A DNA stretch of 37,982 bases, from positions 1-37,982 of the forward strand of contig JAICPS010000002.1 of the NCBI GenBank assembly GCA_025929715.1, given 5' to 3'. A program made the position numbers and the translations under genes. A model generated the notes under the pieces. The model was not told where the DNA came from and searched no databases. It was given only the letters and a program-made list of their open reading frames with translations. Below are positions 3,273 to 27,140 of the stretch, one piece after another. The first letter of the stretch is position 1; every line of letters begins with the position of its first letter. The stretch is from Anaerolineae bacterium (lineage in GTDB: Bacteria; Chloroflexota; Anaerolineae; Promineifilales; Promineifilaceae).

Positions 3273-4727
3273 ATGAAAATTATCGTTGTCGGTACAGGTT
3301 TTGTGGGACTTCCGCATGCAGCCGTGCTCTCTGAATACGGGCATGAAGTTTATGCATACGACATAGATGAGGAACGCATTCGCGCGTATCAGTCGGGTGA
3401 CCGGGACCAAATTGAACGATACGTCAACGAACCGGGATTAGTAGAGGCCATCGAAGAGACTATCGACCGGTATCTTCATTTCACGACTAGTCTGGACGAC
3501 GTGATCGAAAGCACCGACATCATTTTCATGTGCCTACCGACGCCACCAAAGCGAGACGGCTCTACTGACCTACGTTTTTACATGAACGCTGCCCACTACC
3601 TGGGCGGACTCCTGGCGCAGCGTTCAGACAAGAAGCGCGTTGTTCTGGTAAATAAGAGTACGGTGCCTGTGAGTACAGCGCGCCAGTTGCAAAAGGTGAT
3701 GGAGGAGCACGGTGTTGAGAATTATGGCGTCGCCTCAAATCCGGAGTTTCTGGCCCAGGGCAGCGCTGTGGAAGGATCGCGCCGTCCCGATCGTGTCGTC
3801 GTCGGAGCCGATACTGAAGAGGATTTCGTCCTATTACGCCAGGTTTATTCTCAATTTGTGAATCACGTGCGCATTCGCTACCTGGAGACGACCCCCGAAA
3901 CCGCAGAATCAATCAAATACGTGGCCAACACGCTGCTTCTCACCTATATCTCCTTCTGGAACGGCGTCGGCGCCAGACTCGGCGAATCATACGCCAACAT
4001 TCACATGGAAGATCTGAAGATCGGCGTAACTGCCGACGAGCGCATCAGCACGTGGGGTTCTTATGTCAGCAATGGGGCAGGTGGAAGCTGCTTTGGTAAA
4101 GATATTCAATCGCTCATTTACCAGCTTAACCGCTCGGGCCGTTCTACGGATCTGCTGCAGGCAGTCTACAATATCAACGAGTACCAGAAGACTTATATGA
4201 TCGATCGCGCGGTATATGAGGCCAATTTTAATTTCAATAACAAACGTGTGGCGTTATTAGGGCTCGCGTTCAAGAAAAGAACCAACGATATGCGCGACTC
4301 TTCTGCGCTGAAGGCAGTGGAATCGCTCCTAGCCAAGGGCGTCGCCGAAATCCGGGCTTACGATCCATTGGCAATGGACGATGCGCAGCGAAGTTGGTTC
4401 AGCCCCGATAATAACCATCTCTTTGAACGCATCACCTACCACGGGACGGCAAAGAAGGCCATCGAGGGGAGCGATGCCCTCTACATTTCTACGGATTGGG
4501 AAGAATTTCGTGGGCTGGCCTCAACCATCGAGCAGGCCGTGGAGCCGCCGTACCTTGTCATCGATGGGCGTCGCATGATTCCCGATTACGATCGACTTAT
4601 CGCCAAAGGGTACGATTATCTTTCTGTGGGTAGCGTGCTGCGCAGGCCGCAGCCTGAAGAAATGGACGAGGATCATAGCAACGGGCAGCTGAATGCAGGC
4701 GTAGGTCAGAAGATGAAAACTGCCTGA
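3273..4727 (+). CDS. ugd: UDP-glucose 6-dehydrogenase (nucleotide-sugar dehydrogenase)
   Basis: A 484-aa enzyme predicted to oxidise UDP-glucose (or a related UDP-sugar) to the uronate with two NAD+. It starts with the NAD-binding motif VVGTGFVGLP (residues 5-14). Other family landmarks are CLPTPPKRDGSTDL (87-100), the STVPVSTA segment (129-136), NPEFLAQGSAV with E158, K215 and N219 in ETAESIKYVANT, and the catalytic cysteine C273 in GGSCFGKD. The usual motif is GGSCFPKD, so the proline is glycine here. The final 25 residues or so are polar and poorly conserved in appearance. The gene ends against the convergent ABC permease, with a hairpin between them. It supplies UDP-glucuronate-type precursor for the surface-glycan genes around it. 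The exact sugar substrate (Glc, GlcNAc or ManNAc) cannot be settled by eye. Confidence 0.9.
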   Translation: MKIIVVGTGFVGLPHAAVLSEYGHEVYAYDIDEERIRAYQSGDRDQIERYVNEPGLVEAIEETIDRYLHFTTSLDDVIESTDIIFMCLPTPPKRDGSTDLRFYMNAAHYLGGLLAQRSDKKRVVLVNKSTVPVSTARQLQKVMEEHGVENYGVASNPEFLAQGSAVEGSRRPDRVVVGADTEEDFVLLRQVYSQFVNHVRIRYLETTPETAESIKYVANTLLLTYISFWNGVGARLGESYANIHMEDLKIGVTADERISTWGSYVSNGAGGSCFGKDIQSLIYQLNRSGRSTDLLQAVYNINEYQKTYMIDRAVYEANFNFNNKRVALLGLAFKKRTNDMRDSSALKAVESLLAKGVAEIRAYDPLAMDDAQRSWFSPDNNHLFERITYHGTAKKAIEGSDALYISTDWEEFRGLASTIEQAVEPPYLVIDGRRMIPDYDRLIAKGYDYLSVGSVLRRPQPEEMDEDHSNGQLNAGVGQKMKTA

Positions 4728-4740
4728 TTTTTCATTTCGC

Positions 4741-4783
4741 CAAGTGACCGGCGTTTCGCGAGTGCCGGTCACATCTGAAAGAT
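4741..4783 (+). repeat. Copy A of a 43-nt hairpin repeat; likely bidirectional terminator
   Basis: The arms GTGACCGGC (4744-4752) and GCCGGTCAC (4764-4772) are perfect inverted repeats, and the stem can continue inward through wobble pairs to a three-base loop. The element sits between the convergent stops of ugd (4727) and the frameshifted tail of the ABC permease (4784). A second copy lies in opposite orientation at 26146-26188: 36 of 43 positions are identical, and the inner stem differs by changes that largely keep pairing. There is no U-tract on the ugd side. Confidence 0.65.
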
Positions 4784-4839: not shown

Positions 4840-5595
4840 TTAGCAGGGAAGCGGTAGGAGGACAATCGCAAAGGCCGCAAGAATAATCAAGTCTGGCGCC
4901 AGAGTCGCCCACGAAGCGCCTTGCAGCAATGCCAGACGCATGGCGCGCAAAGCATAGGTGATAGGCAGCAGGTTGGCAACAGCCTGTAGCCAGCCAGGCA
5001 TGATTTCCACTGGGTAGAAGACGCCGCCTACAAGCGTAGCGAACCCACCAAAGAGGCCGGTTACTGGATCGCCTCGCTTAATAACCATGATTACGCTCGC
5101 CGCAATGATCCCCAAAGCGGCAAAGGCCGACACGGCGATAAGCAGCGTAACGACAGCGCCCCAGTAGTTCGCGTTCGCCAGTTCCATCCCCAGCGCGATG
5201 CCGAGGAGCAGGTAGACGACGACGCGAAAGGTTGTGAAGGCGTAGCTCCACGCCGCCGAACCAATTATCACGAATGAAACCGGTGCGGGCGTCATGAGCA
5301 TGGCTTCCAACGTTCCGGTAGTCTGCGCCTGGCGCAGGGCGCGAGCAAAACCGCTGAGACCTAGCGTAAAATAACTGGCAAAAGCCACGCCAATGAGCGC
5401 GAATGCAAAATAGTCACCACCATAAGGCGCCAGCAGCGGCCGCACGCTGTCACCGAGCAAACGGGATACGAAGTAGTAGGTGACCGCCGTAAAAATAATG
5501 CCAATGATGCCAAGCAGAAATGAAAAGCGGTAGCTGATTTCGGTACGTAAATCTCGGATCAGGAAGGCGCGGATCAGTCGCAGACGATCCAGCAT
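4840..5595 (-). CDS. ABC-2 type transporter permease, C-terminus frameshifted
   Basis: A 251-aa protein with six hydrophobic segments. It is the membrane half of an ABC-2 exporter whose ATPase lies just upstream (3-base gap). The N-terminal IRAFLIRDLRTEISYRFSF amphipathic segment and the FYPVEIMPGWLQAVANLLPITYALRA loop before the last helix are typical of the NodJ/DrrB-like family. The frame stops abruptly after LLPLPC. The other frame continues without a stop as LLIFSFAVERARKEGSLAHY to a TAG at 4784-4786, which is exactly the usual tail (last helix, charged end) of this family. One base appears to be missing near 4846-4849, or the sequence has an error there. A shift of -1 at the CCC codon would give about 270 aa. 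The substrate is unknown. Confidence 0.82.
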   Translation of the reverse strand: MLDRLRLIRAFLIRDLRTEISYRFSFLLGIIGIIFTAVTYYFVSRLLGDSVRPLLAPYGGDYFAFALIGVAFASYFTLGLSGFARALRQAQTTGTLEAMLMTPAPVSFVIIGSAAWSYAFTTFRVVVYLLLGIALGMELANANYWGAVVTLLIAVSAFAALGIIAASVIMVIKRGDPVTGLFGGFATLVGGVFYPVEIMPGWLQAVANLLPITYALRAMRLALLQGASWATLAPDLIILAAFAIVLLPLPC

Positions 5596-9525: not shown

Positions 9526-9577
9526 GTTATGGGCGAGTCATCATTTGGAGAAAGTAGCAGCGAAAACAGGTATCGAC

Positions 9578-9604
9578 TGCCGGCGACCTTAGTGGTCGCC
9601 GGCA
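9578..9604 (-). terminator. Perfect 11-bp hairpin downstream of ftsZ
   Basis: TGCCGGCGACC and GGTCGCCGGCA pair perfectly around the five-base loop 9589-9593, about 80 bases after the ftsZ stop. It probably marks the 3' end of the dcw transcript. There is no run of U after it on the minus strand, only a short T-rich patch about ten bases later, so intrinsic termination is uncertain. Confidence 0.5.
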
Positions 9605-9681
9605 ATCTACCAGAGGGGGTAAACTGTGGTTAGTGGCGACTCAGCCAATAGGACGAGCGCTGACGTCGCCGCCGGTATCGA

Positions 9682-12190: not shown

Positions 12191-12231
12191 GTGACCGGTG
12201 GCGCCGACAAAAAGCGACCAGGAACCACCGA
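12191..12231. repeat. Imperfect inverted repeat in the ftsQ-ftsA gap
   Basis: CGGTGG (12196-12201) and CCACCG (12226-12231) can pair across a 24-base loop, in the 79-base gap between ftsQ and ftsA. The left side begins GTGACCGG, the same eight bases that open the 43-nt hairpin repeat at 4741 and 26146, so this may be a decayed copy. Confidence 0.25.
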
Positions 12232-22346: not shown

Positions 22347-23786
22347 CTACATTTCTCGATGTGATGGCTCGCGCCTTGCTAGCGCGGTCACAACCTGATC
22401 CAGCGCCACGCCACGCGAGCCCTTCACCAATATAACGTCAAGTGGTTCAATCAAATCTTCTAACAAGGGTATCGCCTCTCCTGCTTCCGCTACAGTAAAG
22501 ACGCGTTTCGGGGACATCCCGTCCAACAGGGCTTCTTCGGCGATCATACGCCCGCGCGTGCCTACCGCTACCAGGATCTGTGCGACGCCTTTGACGCGGC
22601 GTCCAACCAGTCGATGTGATTGTTCTTCGGCCGGACCCAGTTCCAGCATGTCTCCAAGCACCGCTATGCGACGGCCCGGCAAATCTTTAAGCAGGTTCAA
22701 GGCAGCAATGACAGATTCAGGACTGGCGTTATACGTATCGTCCAGGATCAGAGATCCTTGTGGCCCGCGCTCGGTGACAAGTCGCAATTGCGATCGTTCG
22801 TCCTGCAATCCGTCGATAATCTCGTCCCAGCGCATACCAACGATCAGTCCTACCGCGGTCGCCCGCAGCGCAGTATGAACGCTGTGCCGACCGAGTAATG
22901 GAACGTGCACGCGCATCGTATCGCCCCGATAATGAAGTGTGAAGCGTAAGCCGTCCAGACCCATGGAAACGATATCATCGGCCCAGAGGTCGGCTCGTGG
23001 ATCGAGACCGTACGTGAACACCTGCGCTTCGGTATGCTGCGCCATGGCCATCACCAGGGGTTCGTCGCGATTTAGGATGGCTACGCCGTCAAAGGGTAAC
23101 GACTCCACCAACTCCTGCTTGGCAGCCGCGATGGCGTCAAGACTCCCCAATCGAGACATGTGCACCGGACCAACGATCGTAACGACGCCGATGCTGGGGC
23201 GAGCAATGTCGCAAAGAAGCGCGATTTCGCCGCGGGCATACATACCCATCTCCAACACGGCCTGTTGGTGGTATCGCCTAAGATTGAGCAACGTCAGAGG
23301 TAATCCAATCTCATTGTTGTAATTGCCTTCGGATTTTAGCGTGCAAAATCGGCGTGAAAGAACGGCGTACGTGAGTTCCTTAGTGGACGTTTTGCCAACA
23401 CTGCCCGTGATACCTGTCACTTGCACGCTGAAGCGGGTGCGCCACTCTCGGGCCCACCGCTGCAGAGCTTGCATCGTGTCGTCGACGACGACCTGGATCG
23501 GAGGTACAAGCGGTCCATCGGGCACGTCGGCCATTTCCGGACCACTTCGTAAATCGATCGTCCCCACGTCGTCAACGACCGGTCGTTCGGCCAACACAGC
23601 GATGGCACCTTTATCGAAAGCATGCTCGACGAAGTCATGGCCATCCCGTTGCTCTCCGCGAAAGGCGACAAAAACATCGCGCTGTCTGACGCCGCGACTG
23701 TCGATGACGACCGAGCCTATGTCCGGCTCGTTGCCGGTAGAACGATATTCAGATAACGCTTCCAACAGATGGCCTAACGTTAACAT
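22347..23786 (-). CDS. murF: UDP-N-acetylmuramoyl-tripeptide--D-alanyl-D-alanine ligase
   Basis: This ligase adds D-Ala-D-Ala to the UDP-MurNAc-tripeptide; 479 aa. The N-terminal domain contains VVIDSRGVRQRDVFVAFRGEQRDGHDFVEHAF, the UDP-binding block of MurE/MurF. The ATP loop GSVGKTSTKE is at 128-137, followed by NYNNEIGLPLTLLN, which distinguishes MurF from MurE, and LDDTYNASPESVIAAL with LGDMLELG. It is downstream of the PBP gene with a 116-base gap; murE, normally between them, is missing. The substrate Ddl product is made by ddl in the same cluster. Confidence 0.97.
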   Translation of the reverse strand: MLTLGHLLEALSEYRSTGNEPDIGSVVIDSRGVRQRDVFVAFRGEQRDGHDFVEHAFDKGAIAVLAERPVVDDVGTIDLRSGPEMADVPDGPLVPPIQVVVDDTMQALQRWAREWRTRFSVQVTGITGSVGKTSTKELTYAVLSRRFCTLKSEGNYNNEIGLPLTLLNLRRYHQQAVLEMGMYARGEIALLCDIARPSIGVVTIVGPVHMSRLGSLDAIAAAKQELVESLPFDGVAILNRDEPLVMAMAQHTEAQVFTYGLDPRADLWADDIVSMGLDGLRFTLHYRGDTMRVHVPLLGRHSVHTALRATAVGLIVGMRWDEIIDGLQDERSQLRLVTERGPQGSLILDDTYNASPESVIAALNLLKDLPGRRIAVLGDMLELGPAEEQSHRLVGRRVKGVAQILVAVGTRGRMIAEEALLDGMSPKRVFTVAEAGEAIPLLEDLIEPLDVILVKGSRGVALDQVVTALARREPSHREM

Positions 23787-23835
23787 TAATTCTCACATCC
23801 GCAGGTGCCGCGCACTTCGTAAGTATTGGCCCCTT

Positions 23836-23883
23836 AAGTGCCGGTCAACTGGGACAGAACACAGCATAAATACACGACCGGTG
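23836..23883. repeat. Degenerate hairpin-repeat half copy in the pbp-murF gap
   Basis: AGTGCCGGTCA (23837-23847) is identical to the right arm of the 43-nt repeat at 4741 and 26146. A partner GACCGGT (23876-23882) is 29 bases away and pairs with GCCGGTC with one wobble. This is the only notable structure in the 116-base gap between murF and the PBP gene. Confidence 0.35.
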
Positions 23884-23902: not shown

Positions 23903-25600
23903 TTAATTGCCTCTTACCTCGATTACGTCGGCTTGTAAACGAACTGAATCAGGCGGTACGTTTAGCATGACGACCAGTTCTTCAGCCAGTTCGGCAAAGG
24001 TTGGCGCCGCGGTCATCGAGCCCCACGGCGACGTGGTCATGCGGTCAAGCTTGACGAGTACCACTATTTCCGGAGCATCTGCCGGCAACCAGCCAATGAA
24101 GGAGCCTATGGTAGCGTCAGAAAGATAGACGCCATTCTCGGGAATCTCTGCAGTGCCGGTTTTCCCGGCGACCGTGTAATCTGCTACTTGCGCCGAATTG
24201 ACCTCGCGGCTCACGGCGGTCACTGCCATCGCATTAAGCTGCTGGGCAGTCGTGGCGCTTATCGGCTGATTCCCAACAGTCGGTTCATGTCGGAATATGC
24301 GGTCGTTGCTGTGAATTTCCTGCACCACGTGCGGTTGCATCAGCCGCCCACCGTTGGCGATTGCTGAAACCGACGAAATCATCTGCAGCGGCGTGACTGC
24401 GATACCCTGACCGTAGGCGTTGGTAGCAATGAAAGATTCGGTCCAGAATTCACTTCCGGGTAGATGCAGAGTTCCAGCTGCCTCCGCCATGAGGTCAATT
24501 CCGGTAGGTCGTCCGAATCCAAATCGCTCCAAATATGTGTAGTAGGTTTCTGGGCCCATCCAACTGGCGATGGTCGCCGCGCCAACGTTGAGCGAGCGTG
24601 CCAGCAATGTCGTCATATCTGTCACGCCCGGTCCGCTGCGGTCCCAATTGAATGTCCGGTGCCCGCCAATCTCGATTATGCCGGTGTCATTATAGGTCGA
24701 TTGCGGCGTCACCGTGCCCGAGTCCAGCGCGGCAGCCATCGTCACCAACTTCATTACGGATCCTGGTTCATACTGTTTGCTTACCGCAGGATTGACTAAT
24801 AGATTTTCGGGAGCCTCATAGAACTCATACGGCGAATAGCAAGGATAATTTGCCATCGCGATGATGGCCCCAGTTCGTGGATCCATGACGATAATGGTGC
24901 CACTTTGTGCCCCGTATTCACTTATCGCTCGCTGAAGATGCTGTTCCACTGCATACTGCACAGTGCGGTCGATAGTCAAAACCAGATCGGCGCCCTCGCG
25001 GGCGATGACGCTGCGCTGGGGCGTCAGCGGAGAGATGCTTCGGACGTCGCTTGCTGCTTCACCTGCCAATTCAGTCTGGTAATATCCTTCCAGCCCGGCG
25101 CCGCCTATGCCACCAAAGTCGACGTAACCCAGCACGTGGCACAGTAGCTCGCCCTGGGGATAGATACGGCGCGGGAGTGGATCGATCTGGATGCCATCGT
25201 ACGGCAAGGCGCGGATAGCTTCGGCAACTTCTGGTGAAACACGACCGGCAAGCAGGACGTAAGGTGTATCTGCTTGCATTAGGGCCAGCAATTCATAACG
25301 CTGCTTTTGCAAGATAGGCGCCAGCGCGGTCGCCATCTCTTCAGCCTGGGTTATCAGAGCCGGAGAAACACCAATTTGATAATCGGCACTGTTACCGGCA
25401 AGAACAGCACCATTGCGATCGTAGATAATCCCACGGTCCGGCTTTGCCACCACGTTGATGCGCTGCACTTGCTTGCCTAGCTCCTTCCAGTGGGCGCCTT
25501 GTACCACCTGAAATGCGACCAGGCGACCAATGATGATCATTGATGCAAATCCTAGCCCGATAACGACGATCCACATACGCTTCAACTGGCTGCCGGTCAC
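23903..25600 (-). CDS. ftsI: Septal penicillin-binding protein (FtsI/PBP2B-type transpeptidase)
   Basis: A class B PBP that crosslinks septal peptidoglycan as FtsW's partner; 565 aa. A short cytoplasmic tail and membrane helix (about 10-33) lead to the dimerisation domain with AKPDRGIIYDRNGAVLA (52-68). The transpeptidase active site has S281-x-x-K284 (SVMK), S336-x-N338 (SLN) and K480-T-G (KTGTAE). There are no PASTA repeats at the C-terminus. It is encoded just after the FtsL-like protein, as in typical dcw clusters, which identifies it as the division rather than elongation PBP. Confidence 0.94.
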   Translation of the reverse strand: MTGSQLKRMWIVVIGLGFASMIIIGRLVAFQVVQGAHWKELGKQVQRINVVAKPDRGIIYDRNGAVLAGNSADYQIGVSPALITQAEEMATALAPILQKQRYELLALMQADTPYVLLAGRVSPEVAEAIRALPYDGIQIDPLPRRIYPQGELLCHVLGYVDFGGIGGAGLEGYYQTELAGEAASDVRSISPLTPQRSVIAREGADLVLTIDRTVQYAVEQHLQRAISEYGAQSGTIIVMDPRTGAIIAMANYPCYSPYEFYEAPENLLVNPAVSKQYEPGSVMKLVTMAAALDSGTVTPQSTYNDTGIIEIGGHRTFNWDRSGPGVTDMTTLLARSLNVGAATIASWMGPETYYTYLERFGFGRPTGIDLMAEAAGTLHLPGSEFWTESFIATNAYGQGIAVTPLQMISSVSAIANGGRLMQPHVVQEIHSNDRIFRHEPTVGNQPISATTAQQLNAMAVTAVSREVNSAQVADYTVAGKTGTAEIPENGVYLSDATIGSFIGWLPADAPEIVVLVKLDRMTTSPWGSMTAAPTFAELAEELVVMLNVPPDSVRLQADVIEVRGN

Positions 25601-25645: not shown

Positions 25646-26128
25646 TCATTGGCCAGACTGGCCCAACACCATATCGCTGACGCTGCCACGCAGCGCCAGA
25701 AGGATTGCATCTCCCATGCTTTGCGCCGGAACGGGCGCCGCCTGAAGTGGTTCAGGCGCAGGCTGTGTAGGCGCCGGCGCGGGATATTGCGGTACCACGA
25801 GATATTCCATGTCCTCCGGCGCAGCTCGCACAAAACCCAGGCGCGCCGCTTCCTGCTGCATCCGTTCCAACGATTGCGCTTCGGCAACGGTTCGCTCCAG
25901 CGCTGCATTGTCGCGCTTGATAATTTGCAGATCGTTTTGCAAAATCTGTACCCTGCGGCCGGTACTAGCAATATTACTGGCCTGGCTGAGATAGATTGCT
26001 CCTACCAACGCCGCTACAGCCAGAACTACGAACCAGCCCATCGCTACCTGAGCGTCGGTGAGAATACCAAGTCGTCTCGCCCGCTGCCGCTTTTGTCTTC
26101 CGGAACTTTTTTCTGCTAGGACTGCCAT
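25646..26128 (-). CDS. ftsL: FtsL-like bitopic division protein
   Basis: From the ATG at 26128 (GGAG-type site about nine bases upstream) the product has 160 aa. The frame is open to 26284, but the extra 52 residues would overlap rsmH and read through the hairpin repeat. A basic cytoplasmic segment (1-27, RQKRQRARRL) precedes one membrane helix (about 29-48), a predicted coiled coil (about 57-97, VQILQNDLQIIKRDNAALERTVAEAQSLERM) and a Pro/Ala-rich stretch (114-135). That is the FtsL/DivIC pattern, and it lies between rsmH and the PBP gene where ftsL is expected. Sequence identity in FtsL is always low, so the symbol rests on topology and context. The Pro-rich tail is longer than in model FtsL proteins. 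Confidence 0.75.
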   Translation of the reverse strand: MAVLAEKSSGRQKRQRARRLGILTDAQVAMGWFVVLAVAALVGAIYLSQASNIASTGRRVQILQNDLQIIKRDNAALERTVAEAQSLERMQQEAARLGFVRAAPEDMEYLVVPQYPAPAPTQPAPEPLQAAPVPAQSMGDAILLALRGSVSDMVLGQSGQ

Positions 26129-26145: not shown

Positions 26146-26188
26146 ATTTTTCAGAGGTGACCGGCACTTTGCAAGCGCCGGTCACTTG
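26146..26188 (-). repeat. Copy B of the 43-nt hairpin repeat, between rsmH and ftsL
   Basis: The perfect 9-bp arms GTGACCGGC (26157-26165) and GCCGGTCAC (26177-26185), with an inner CTT/AAG stem, start about 11 bases after the rsmH stop. Read on the minus strand, it matches copy A (4741-4783) at 36 of 43 positions, including the flank TCTGAAA after the hairpin. It may attenuate or stabilise the transcript inside the dcw operon. Confidence 0.65.
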
Positions 26189-26198
26189 AGAATTTGAG

Positions 26199-27140
26199 TT
26201 ATACGCTAATCGTTGCTCCAAGCTTCTCGGCGACCCGCAATCTTGCGCTGCGGCTGCGAGGATTGATTTCGATTTCCTGCTCACCTGGCTTAACCGCCTT
26301 CCGGGTGATAAGCCTCACGACTGCTTCGGCATCACAGGTGCAGATAGGCTGACGCGGGGGACAAACACAGTCTCTAGTGAGATCTCGAAAAAAATTCTTA
26401 ACGAACCGGTCCTCTAACGAGTGGAAACTGATCACCGCGATGCGGCTACCGGGTTGCAACAGCTCGATGGCTTCCTGCAAGCCCACTTCCAACTCGGCAA
26501 GCTCCTGGTTAACAGCGATCCTTAGCGCCTGGAACACCTGCGTGGCGGGGTGAATTCGGCGGCGCCGCGAGTGGCCTGGCGCTTCGTGTTCGATCAGCTT
26601 TGCCAATTCAAACGTCGTAGATATCGGACGGGCGCTTACAATTGCCCGCGCATACTTACGGCTCAGACGTTCCTCGCCATAGCGCCAGAAGATATCCGCT
26701 AGAGCATTCGCGCTTAGACTGTTAACCAGGTCGGCGGCCGTTTTTCCCGCGCTGGTATCGAAACGCATGTCGAGTGGCCCCTCGCGCTGAAACGAAAAGC
26801 CTCGAGCGGGATTTTCTAACTGTCGTGACGATAAACCCAGGTCTAGCAAAATACCGTCCACCTTTGTAAAGCCATGGATTGGAGCCAATTCTCCCATCCG
26901 AGAGTAGCTGTCGTGCACAAACGTTACACGGTTGCTATGTTCTGCCAGACGATCTGCGGCGAATGACAAGGCCTCTTCGTCGCGATCGAAGGCCAACAAA
27001 CGGCCGTCGGGTGCCGAGGCTTCCAGGATACCGGCGCTGTGTCCGCCGGCTCCAACTGTACCGTCGACGTACTGTCCGCCAGGACGTGGCTCGAGTAAGG
27101 CCAGAACTTCATCGTACAGAACCGGAACATGCTCTTCCAT
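26199..27140 (-). CDS. rsmH: 16S rRNA (cytosine1402-N4)-methyltransferase
   Basis: This SAM-dependent methyltransferase (formerly MraW) modifies C1402 of 16S rRNA at the P site; 313 aa. Motif [11 protein letters not shown] is at 26-35. [39 protein letters not shown]-like, [20 protein letters not shown] and [16 protein letters not shown] are the standard conserved blocks. The C-terminus [15 protein letters not shown] is typical. It follows mraZ as in most bacteria. No Shine-Dalgarno site precedes the ATG at 27140; instead the 75-base gap upstream can fold into a long hairpin (27154-27212). Confidence 0.97.

Follow-up and report, generated by a model that had tools for sequence, protein, structure and literature searches.

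Palindromic elements in the window

The window, which is the whole 37,982-nucleotide stretch of Anaerolineae DNA analysed here, carries three copies of a palindromic element, two of them in a division and cell-wall gene cluster. The copies and their neighbouring genes are as follows:

3273–4727, + strand: ugd-like gene of the UDP-glucose/GDP-mannose dehydrogenase family (Pfam PF03721/PF00984/PF03720); upstream neighbour of copy A
4742–4774, + strand: copy A, palindromic element, 33-nt unit (arms 4742–4756 and 4760–4774, loop CGC); core GTGACCGGCGTTTCGCGAGTGCCGGTCAC at 4744–4772; 3′ flank TCTGAAA reaching 4780
4840–5595, − strand: ABC-2 type transporter permease (Pfam PF01061); convergent neighbour of copy A
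22347–23786, − strand: Mur ligase, murE-position (Pfam PF08245/PF02875/PF01225); downstream neighbour of the decayed copy
23803–23850, strand not assigned: third, decayed copy (left arm 23803–23817, right arm 23836–23850)
23903–25600, − strand: ftsI-like penicillin-binding protein transpeptidase (Pfam PF00905/PF03717); upstream neighbour of the decayed copy
25646–26128, − strand: ftsL-position gene for a short protein (ATG at 26128), named from sequence and position; downstream neighbour of copy B
26155–26187, − strand: copy B, palindromic element, 33-nt unit; core GTGACCGGCGCTTGCAAAGTGCCGGTCAC at 26157–26185; 3′ flank TCTGAAA reaching 26148
26199–27140, − strand: rsmH (MraW methylase; Pfam PF01795, 2e-113); upstream neighbour of copy B

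Copy A lies 14 nt past the ugd stop codon in a convergent gene gap, and copy B lies 11 nt past the rsmH stop codon within the division/cell-wall cluster. The gene downstream of copy B, whose product has no Pfam hit, is placed between rsmH and the transpeptidase gene. An earlier note on this DNA had described copies A and B as two related hairpins, and both were found where it had placed them. Aligned over 43 nt without gaps (84%), they rank first among the inverted pairs within the window, and the arm pattern at up to three mismatches occurs twice, against 0.02 expected from shuffles. The inner-stem differences between the two copies, said in the note largely to keep pairing, do so only if G-T wobbles are counted (three in A, one in B).

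The third copy had been read as a half copy at 23837–23847. That segment belongs to a decayed whole copy in the intergenic space flanked by the genes for the penicillin-binding protein and the Mur ligase; its left arm has three mismatches and its right arm one, and the arms are 18 nt apart rather than 3. A further possible half copy, at 12191–12198, comes down to an 8-mer for which we estimate about one chance occurrence. The window also holds an intergenic hairpin at 9575–9607 (13-bp stem, 5-nt loop, GACTGCCGGCGACCTTAGTGGTCGCCGGCAATC), which is unrelated to the palindrome family.

Size, anatomy and decay of the family

The source genome is a draft of 5.06 Mb in 776 contigs and is 94% complete. 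Searching it with the arm pattern returned 116 matches at up to three mismatches, compared with 5 for the reversed-pattern control, and 69 matches at up to one mismatch, compared with none. We put the family at about 110 copies. The dispersed repeat proposed in the earlier note is therefore real and was understated there, and its floor of three copies genome-wide is exceeded at both stringencies.

Of 62 matches examined together with their flanks, two had no family flanks and were dropped, leaving 60 of the ~110 copies. The consensus of the 33-nt palindrome is AGGTGACCGGCACTT-NNN-AAGTGCCGGTCACCT, and the extended consensus of the 60 copies is CTCAG-GTGACCGGCACTT-NNN-AAGTGCCGGTCAC-CTCTGGA. Beyond about −5 and +6 the flanks are no more conserved than background, which marks the copies as dispersed units. 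The conserved unit spans ~33–40 nt rather than the 43 nt first proposed; the TCTGAAA flank is partly conserved, being CTCTGGA-like across the family and fading by +6.

Positions −4 to −1, the foot of the stem, are mostly T, C, A and G (37, 46, 57 and 52 of ~62, respectively). The A and G are the best-conserved bases of the 5′ flank, and a CT flanks the stem on its opposite side. GTAG occurs at the foot of a minority of copies only; with a majority foot of TCAG, the palindrome is not a canonical GTAG REP. The consensus flanks contain no CGTC tag either, which sets the family outside the CGTC REP superfamily.

The consensus folds into a 15-bp stem with a 3-nt loop (z-score −8.9; −4.5 for copy A and −7.7 for copy B). 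Compensatory changes between copies are few: of the cells given by 15 pairs in 60 copies, 45 are mismatched and 10 compensatory, and 23 copies pair perfectly. The pattern resembles decay from a master sequence more than site-by-site structural selection.

Copies lie close to the ends of three contigs (C6, C16 and C445), a few to a dozen bases away. The latter two contigs have a common junction sequence, and the assembly therefore breaks at the palindrome repeat. At three loci (L006 on C109, L217 on C715 and L229 on C125) an extra single arm, e.g. AGGTGACCGGC, precedes the full palindrome, as if arms had been duplicated in tandem.

Genomic placement and distribution

Relative to gene calls from a home-made hexamer model, which makes the placement numbers approximate, 45 of the 62 matches lie between two genes (15 in convergent, 28 in tandem and 2 in divergent gaps) and four at contig edges. 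Overlap with a called gene accounts for the remaining 13; most of these sit at gene ends or are the two matches outside the family. Random positions fell outside genes in 9.5% of trials. The distance from stop codon to copy has a median of 10 nt, so that the placement 11–14 nt after a stop, reported for copies A and B and true of both, extends to the family as a whole. Since the loci were selected as element carriers, gap occupancy can be compared only between classes: 16 of 25 convergent, 31 of 115 tandem and 2 of 12 divergent gaps are occupied, and in these relative terms convergent gaps are favoured and divergent gaps nearly empty. Within tandem gaps, 16 copies are oriented with the genes and 12 against them.

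Such strong placement right after stop codons, with many convergent gaps, and a very stable hairpin would suit a conserved RNA 3′-end element, one whose copies are retained because their hairpins end transcripts or protect them. However, orientation in tandem gaps is mixed, mismatches outnumber compensatory changes, copy A has no terminator-like T-run, and the division/cell-wall cluster holds two of the three window copies. An Rfam scan of the window gave no matches. The element is also lineage-specific: in 29 relatives it is absent from the orthologous slot between rsmH and the next gene. We consider this reading improbable and conclude that the palindrome is not a conserved 3′-end RNA element, though it may have a secondary influence on mRNA 3′ ends. 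The earlier note had offered "REP-like family or conserved 3′-end element" as a pair; only the REP-like half stands, on copy number, post-stop intergenic placement, lineage-specific amplification and the association, in another genome, of a RAYT-type transposase with the identical palindrome (see below).

An intrinsic (Rho-independent) terminator at copy A was considered separately and rejected, as there is no terminator-like site around the copy and no T-run in the flank profile of the read copies.

The element is patchy in distribution. Among 52 genomes of the same taxonomic family, the palindrome family occurs only in its own genome, with single matches in a few others; the same-genus genome has no match at up to one mismatch. 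In a phylum sample of 400 genomes, none of the 399 others contains a related pattern. Among the matches listed from a scan of 84,980 species, identical or near-identical units occur in Chloroflexota MAGs, several with identical 29-mers, and these carriers have 1 to 25 copies each. Viral contigs gave no palindrome match. The matches outside Chloroflexota among those listed, mostly with random inner stems, were judged to be chance.

In several relatives (loci L158, L163 and L171), the rsmH–ftsL gap is occupied by other, unrelated hairpin-like or repeated sequences, as if this gap readily accepts repeats.

A perfect palindrome with a highly constrained core, spread across many contigs, could also be a dispersed site for a chromosomal protein (nucleoid, segregation or regulator) and be kept for dimer binding. 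We regard this as very unlikely: the palindrome is abundant here yet missing from the same-genus genome and nearly all relatives, divergent gaps are depleted of copies, and in another genome the identical sequence brackets a RAYT gene.

RAYT-type transposases and the probable origin of the palindrome

In an Anaerolineae MAG (G060, locus L276), perfect copies at 1419–1451 and 2083–2115 bracket a gene at 1501–2085. It encodes a 195-aa protein in which Pfam finds only a Y1_Tnp domain (Y1 HUH transposase, RAYT/TnpA_REP type), with the HuH motif and the Y-x-x-x-NP signature of RAYT/TnpA_REP class 2. The protein matches the NCBIfam model NF047646, REP_Tyr_transpos (REP-associated tyrosine transposase), at 1e-19 and 70.9 bits, where the equivalog cut-off is 80, and, judged by its length and its Pfam content, appears to lack a long C-terminal HTH extension of the subclass 2.1 type (PMC6006769). 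Ten of ten homologues match the same model at E ≤ 0.001, and a profile of the ten matches TnpA_REP (PDB 4ER8) at 7e-9. H60, H62, Y120, N124 and P125 are invariant in the ten homologues and Y61 is present in at least 90%. The exact link between this palindrome and a RAYT comes from one genome, G060.

The identity of the bracketed gene bears on another reading, that of a MITE of a DDE-type transposase with the arms as terminal inverted repeats. Inverted arms around a tiny centre, high copy number and a mobile-like distribution are what such a MITE would show, but the gene bracketed in G060 encodes a Y1 HUH transposase, and target-site duplications were absent at every offset (best z 2.5; null maximum ~3.2). 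We give the DDE reading very little weight; absence of target duplication is expected of Y1 HUH enzymes.

Most of the inspected homologues above 35% identity have a palindrome of their own (3- to 5-nt loop) alongside, usually on both sides; at L279 and L288 it is on one side only, and near the partial match at L289 its position relative to the gene is unplaced. A more distant Pseudomonas homologue (L282, 32% identity) has no such palindrome on both sides. Two of these other palindromes are dispersed families in their genomes: the AGACCTC palindrome has 10, 15 and 29 matches in G060, G065 and G068 and 7 each in G062 and G067, and the ACGTGCC palindrome has 21 in G068 and 29 in G062, both with no control matches. 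In a maximum-likelihood tree, several forks of which are only moderately supported, transposases from different genomes group as sisters if they share a palindrome, and protein similarity correlates with arm similarity (Spearman 0.28, permutation p 0.03). Palindromes are matched to transposase clade.

In the source draft itself no Y1 transposase passes the Pfam cut-off and no RAYT homologue was found; RAYT homologues are likewise missing from the carriers G061, G063 and G064. Only ordinary genes were seen between neighbouring copies on contigs C109 and C133. The RAYT may have been lost, or may sit on a short contig that binning missed, given that the draft is 94% complete and that three contigs end at copies. 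One weak Y1 hit in the source genome (18.7 bits) was rejected as a transposase: it is a 409-aa gene beside a polA-like gene and is also present in the same-genus genome. In several genomes the C-terminal part of this conserved gene of ~370–410 aa (L267 on C128 of the source genome; L265 on contig C340 of the same-genus genome, G014) includes a stretch with very weak resemblance to Y1_Tnp.

Taken together, we propose, with a probability of roughly 0.8, that the palindrome is a REP-like non-autonomous element of the RAYT/TIRYT kind, copied by a single-strand DNA transposase. A RAYT-type enzyme (class-2 Y1 HUH, HYH motif) would recognise the perfect hairpin of 13–15 bp with its 3-nt loop in single-stranded DNA, such as that of the lagging strand. 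The foot tetranucleotide (in most copies TCAG, the AG being conserved) would direct its nicking to CT dinucleotides adjoining the stem, and the hairpin would be re-joined elsewhere without target duplication. Insertions would survive mainly in short post-stop gaps, away from promoters, and later decay. Mobility is what we infer from the distribution of the copies, and the family in the source genome was probably spread by the same RAYT clade as that of G060.

A parallel to the proposed cleavage step is found in the group 3 TnpA_REP proteins (PMC8266576). The targets that these proteins recognise are perfect palindromes, one having a 3-nt loop; the proteins cleave at CT sites, the choice of which is believed to lie with the foot AG. 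By analogy, the foot AG and the CT across the stem suggest the same cleavage logic here. As in the group 3 REPs of Stenotrophomonas maltophilia (REPtron Sm; PMC8266576), the palindrome combines a perfect stem, a 3-nt loop and an AG-ending foot at the stem, brackets a class-2 Y1 HUH gene (in G060) and has dispersed intergenic copies. Unlike them, its foot is mostly TCAG rather than GTAG, its stem is 13–15 bp, and its own draft genome has no transposase that we found. By the general description of REPs, the 33-nt unit is a palindrome of 20–40 nt in many dispersed, mainly intergenic copies, and a Y1 HUH gene flanked by the same palindrome is present in G060, the transposase not being found in the source draft.

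The elements also resemble TIRYTs and TIRtrons (PMC3733652), in which a Y1 gene is flanked by untagged inverted repeats, some self-complementary, that form moderately abundant dispersed families; we likewise observed dispersed, untagged, self-complementary repeats on both sides of the gene, although the GGGGWSAS motif is missing from the palindromes seen. A REP family previously reported from Chloroflexi is GTAG-23, the GTAG-tagged REPs of T. roseum (PMC3733652). It shares dispersed palindromic repeats with the present family and probably the phylum too, as proteins of the source genome lean towards Chloroflexota loci, and differs from it in its GTAG tag, its sequence and its insertion in small GC palindromes. 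With REPINs and BIMEs (PMC3116915) the palindrome has in common that it is short, intergenic, non-autonomous and RAYT-tied; a REPIN consists of two inverted REPs and a spacer, whereas here there is one compact palindrome with partly self-complementary arms.

The family is undescribed, the kind of element is already known, and the case is unsurprising in kind. It adds a REP-like family and matched transposase–palindrome pairs from the poorly studied Chloroflexota, pairs with which one can usefully test how RAYTs select hairpins without a GTAG guide. It further accounts for a recurring hairpin otherwise open to annotation as a regulatory RNA.

At the RAYT flanks (L276–L304), the palindrome arms are partly self-complementary, with a mean self-stem of 5.2 bp. 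For ten partly related arms, uncorrected for kinship, this was equalled in none of 5000 shuffles, which suggests a nested-hairpin design. A tentative extension, which we think possible but rather doubtful, is a Chloroflexota-centred RAYT clade (HYH) that goes with untagged, perfect palindromes whose arms are mini-hairpins, X-c-X′-nnn-X-c′-X′. Each palindrome would be a miniature REPIN with a version for each RAYT lineage, and the family described here would number more than 100 copies without a resident transposase. It is hinted at by the self-complementarity of the arms and by RAYT relatedness, which tracks palindrome similarity.
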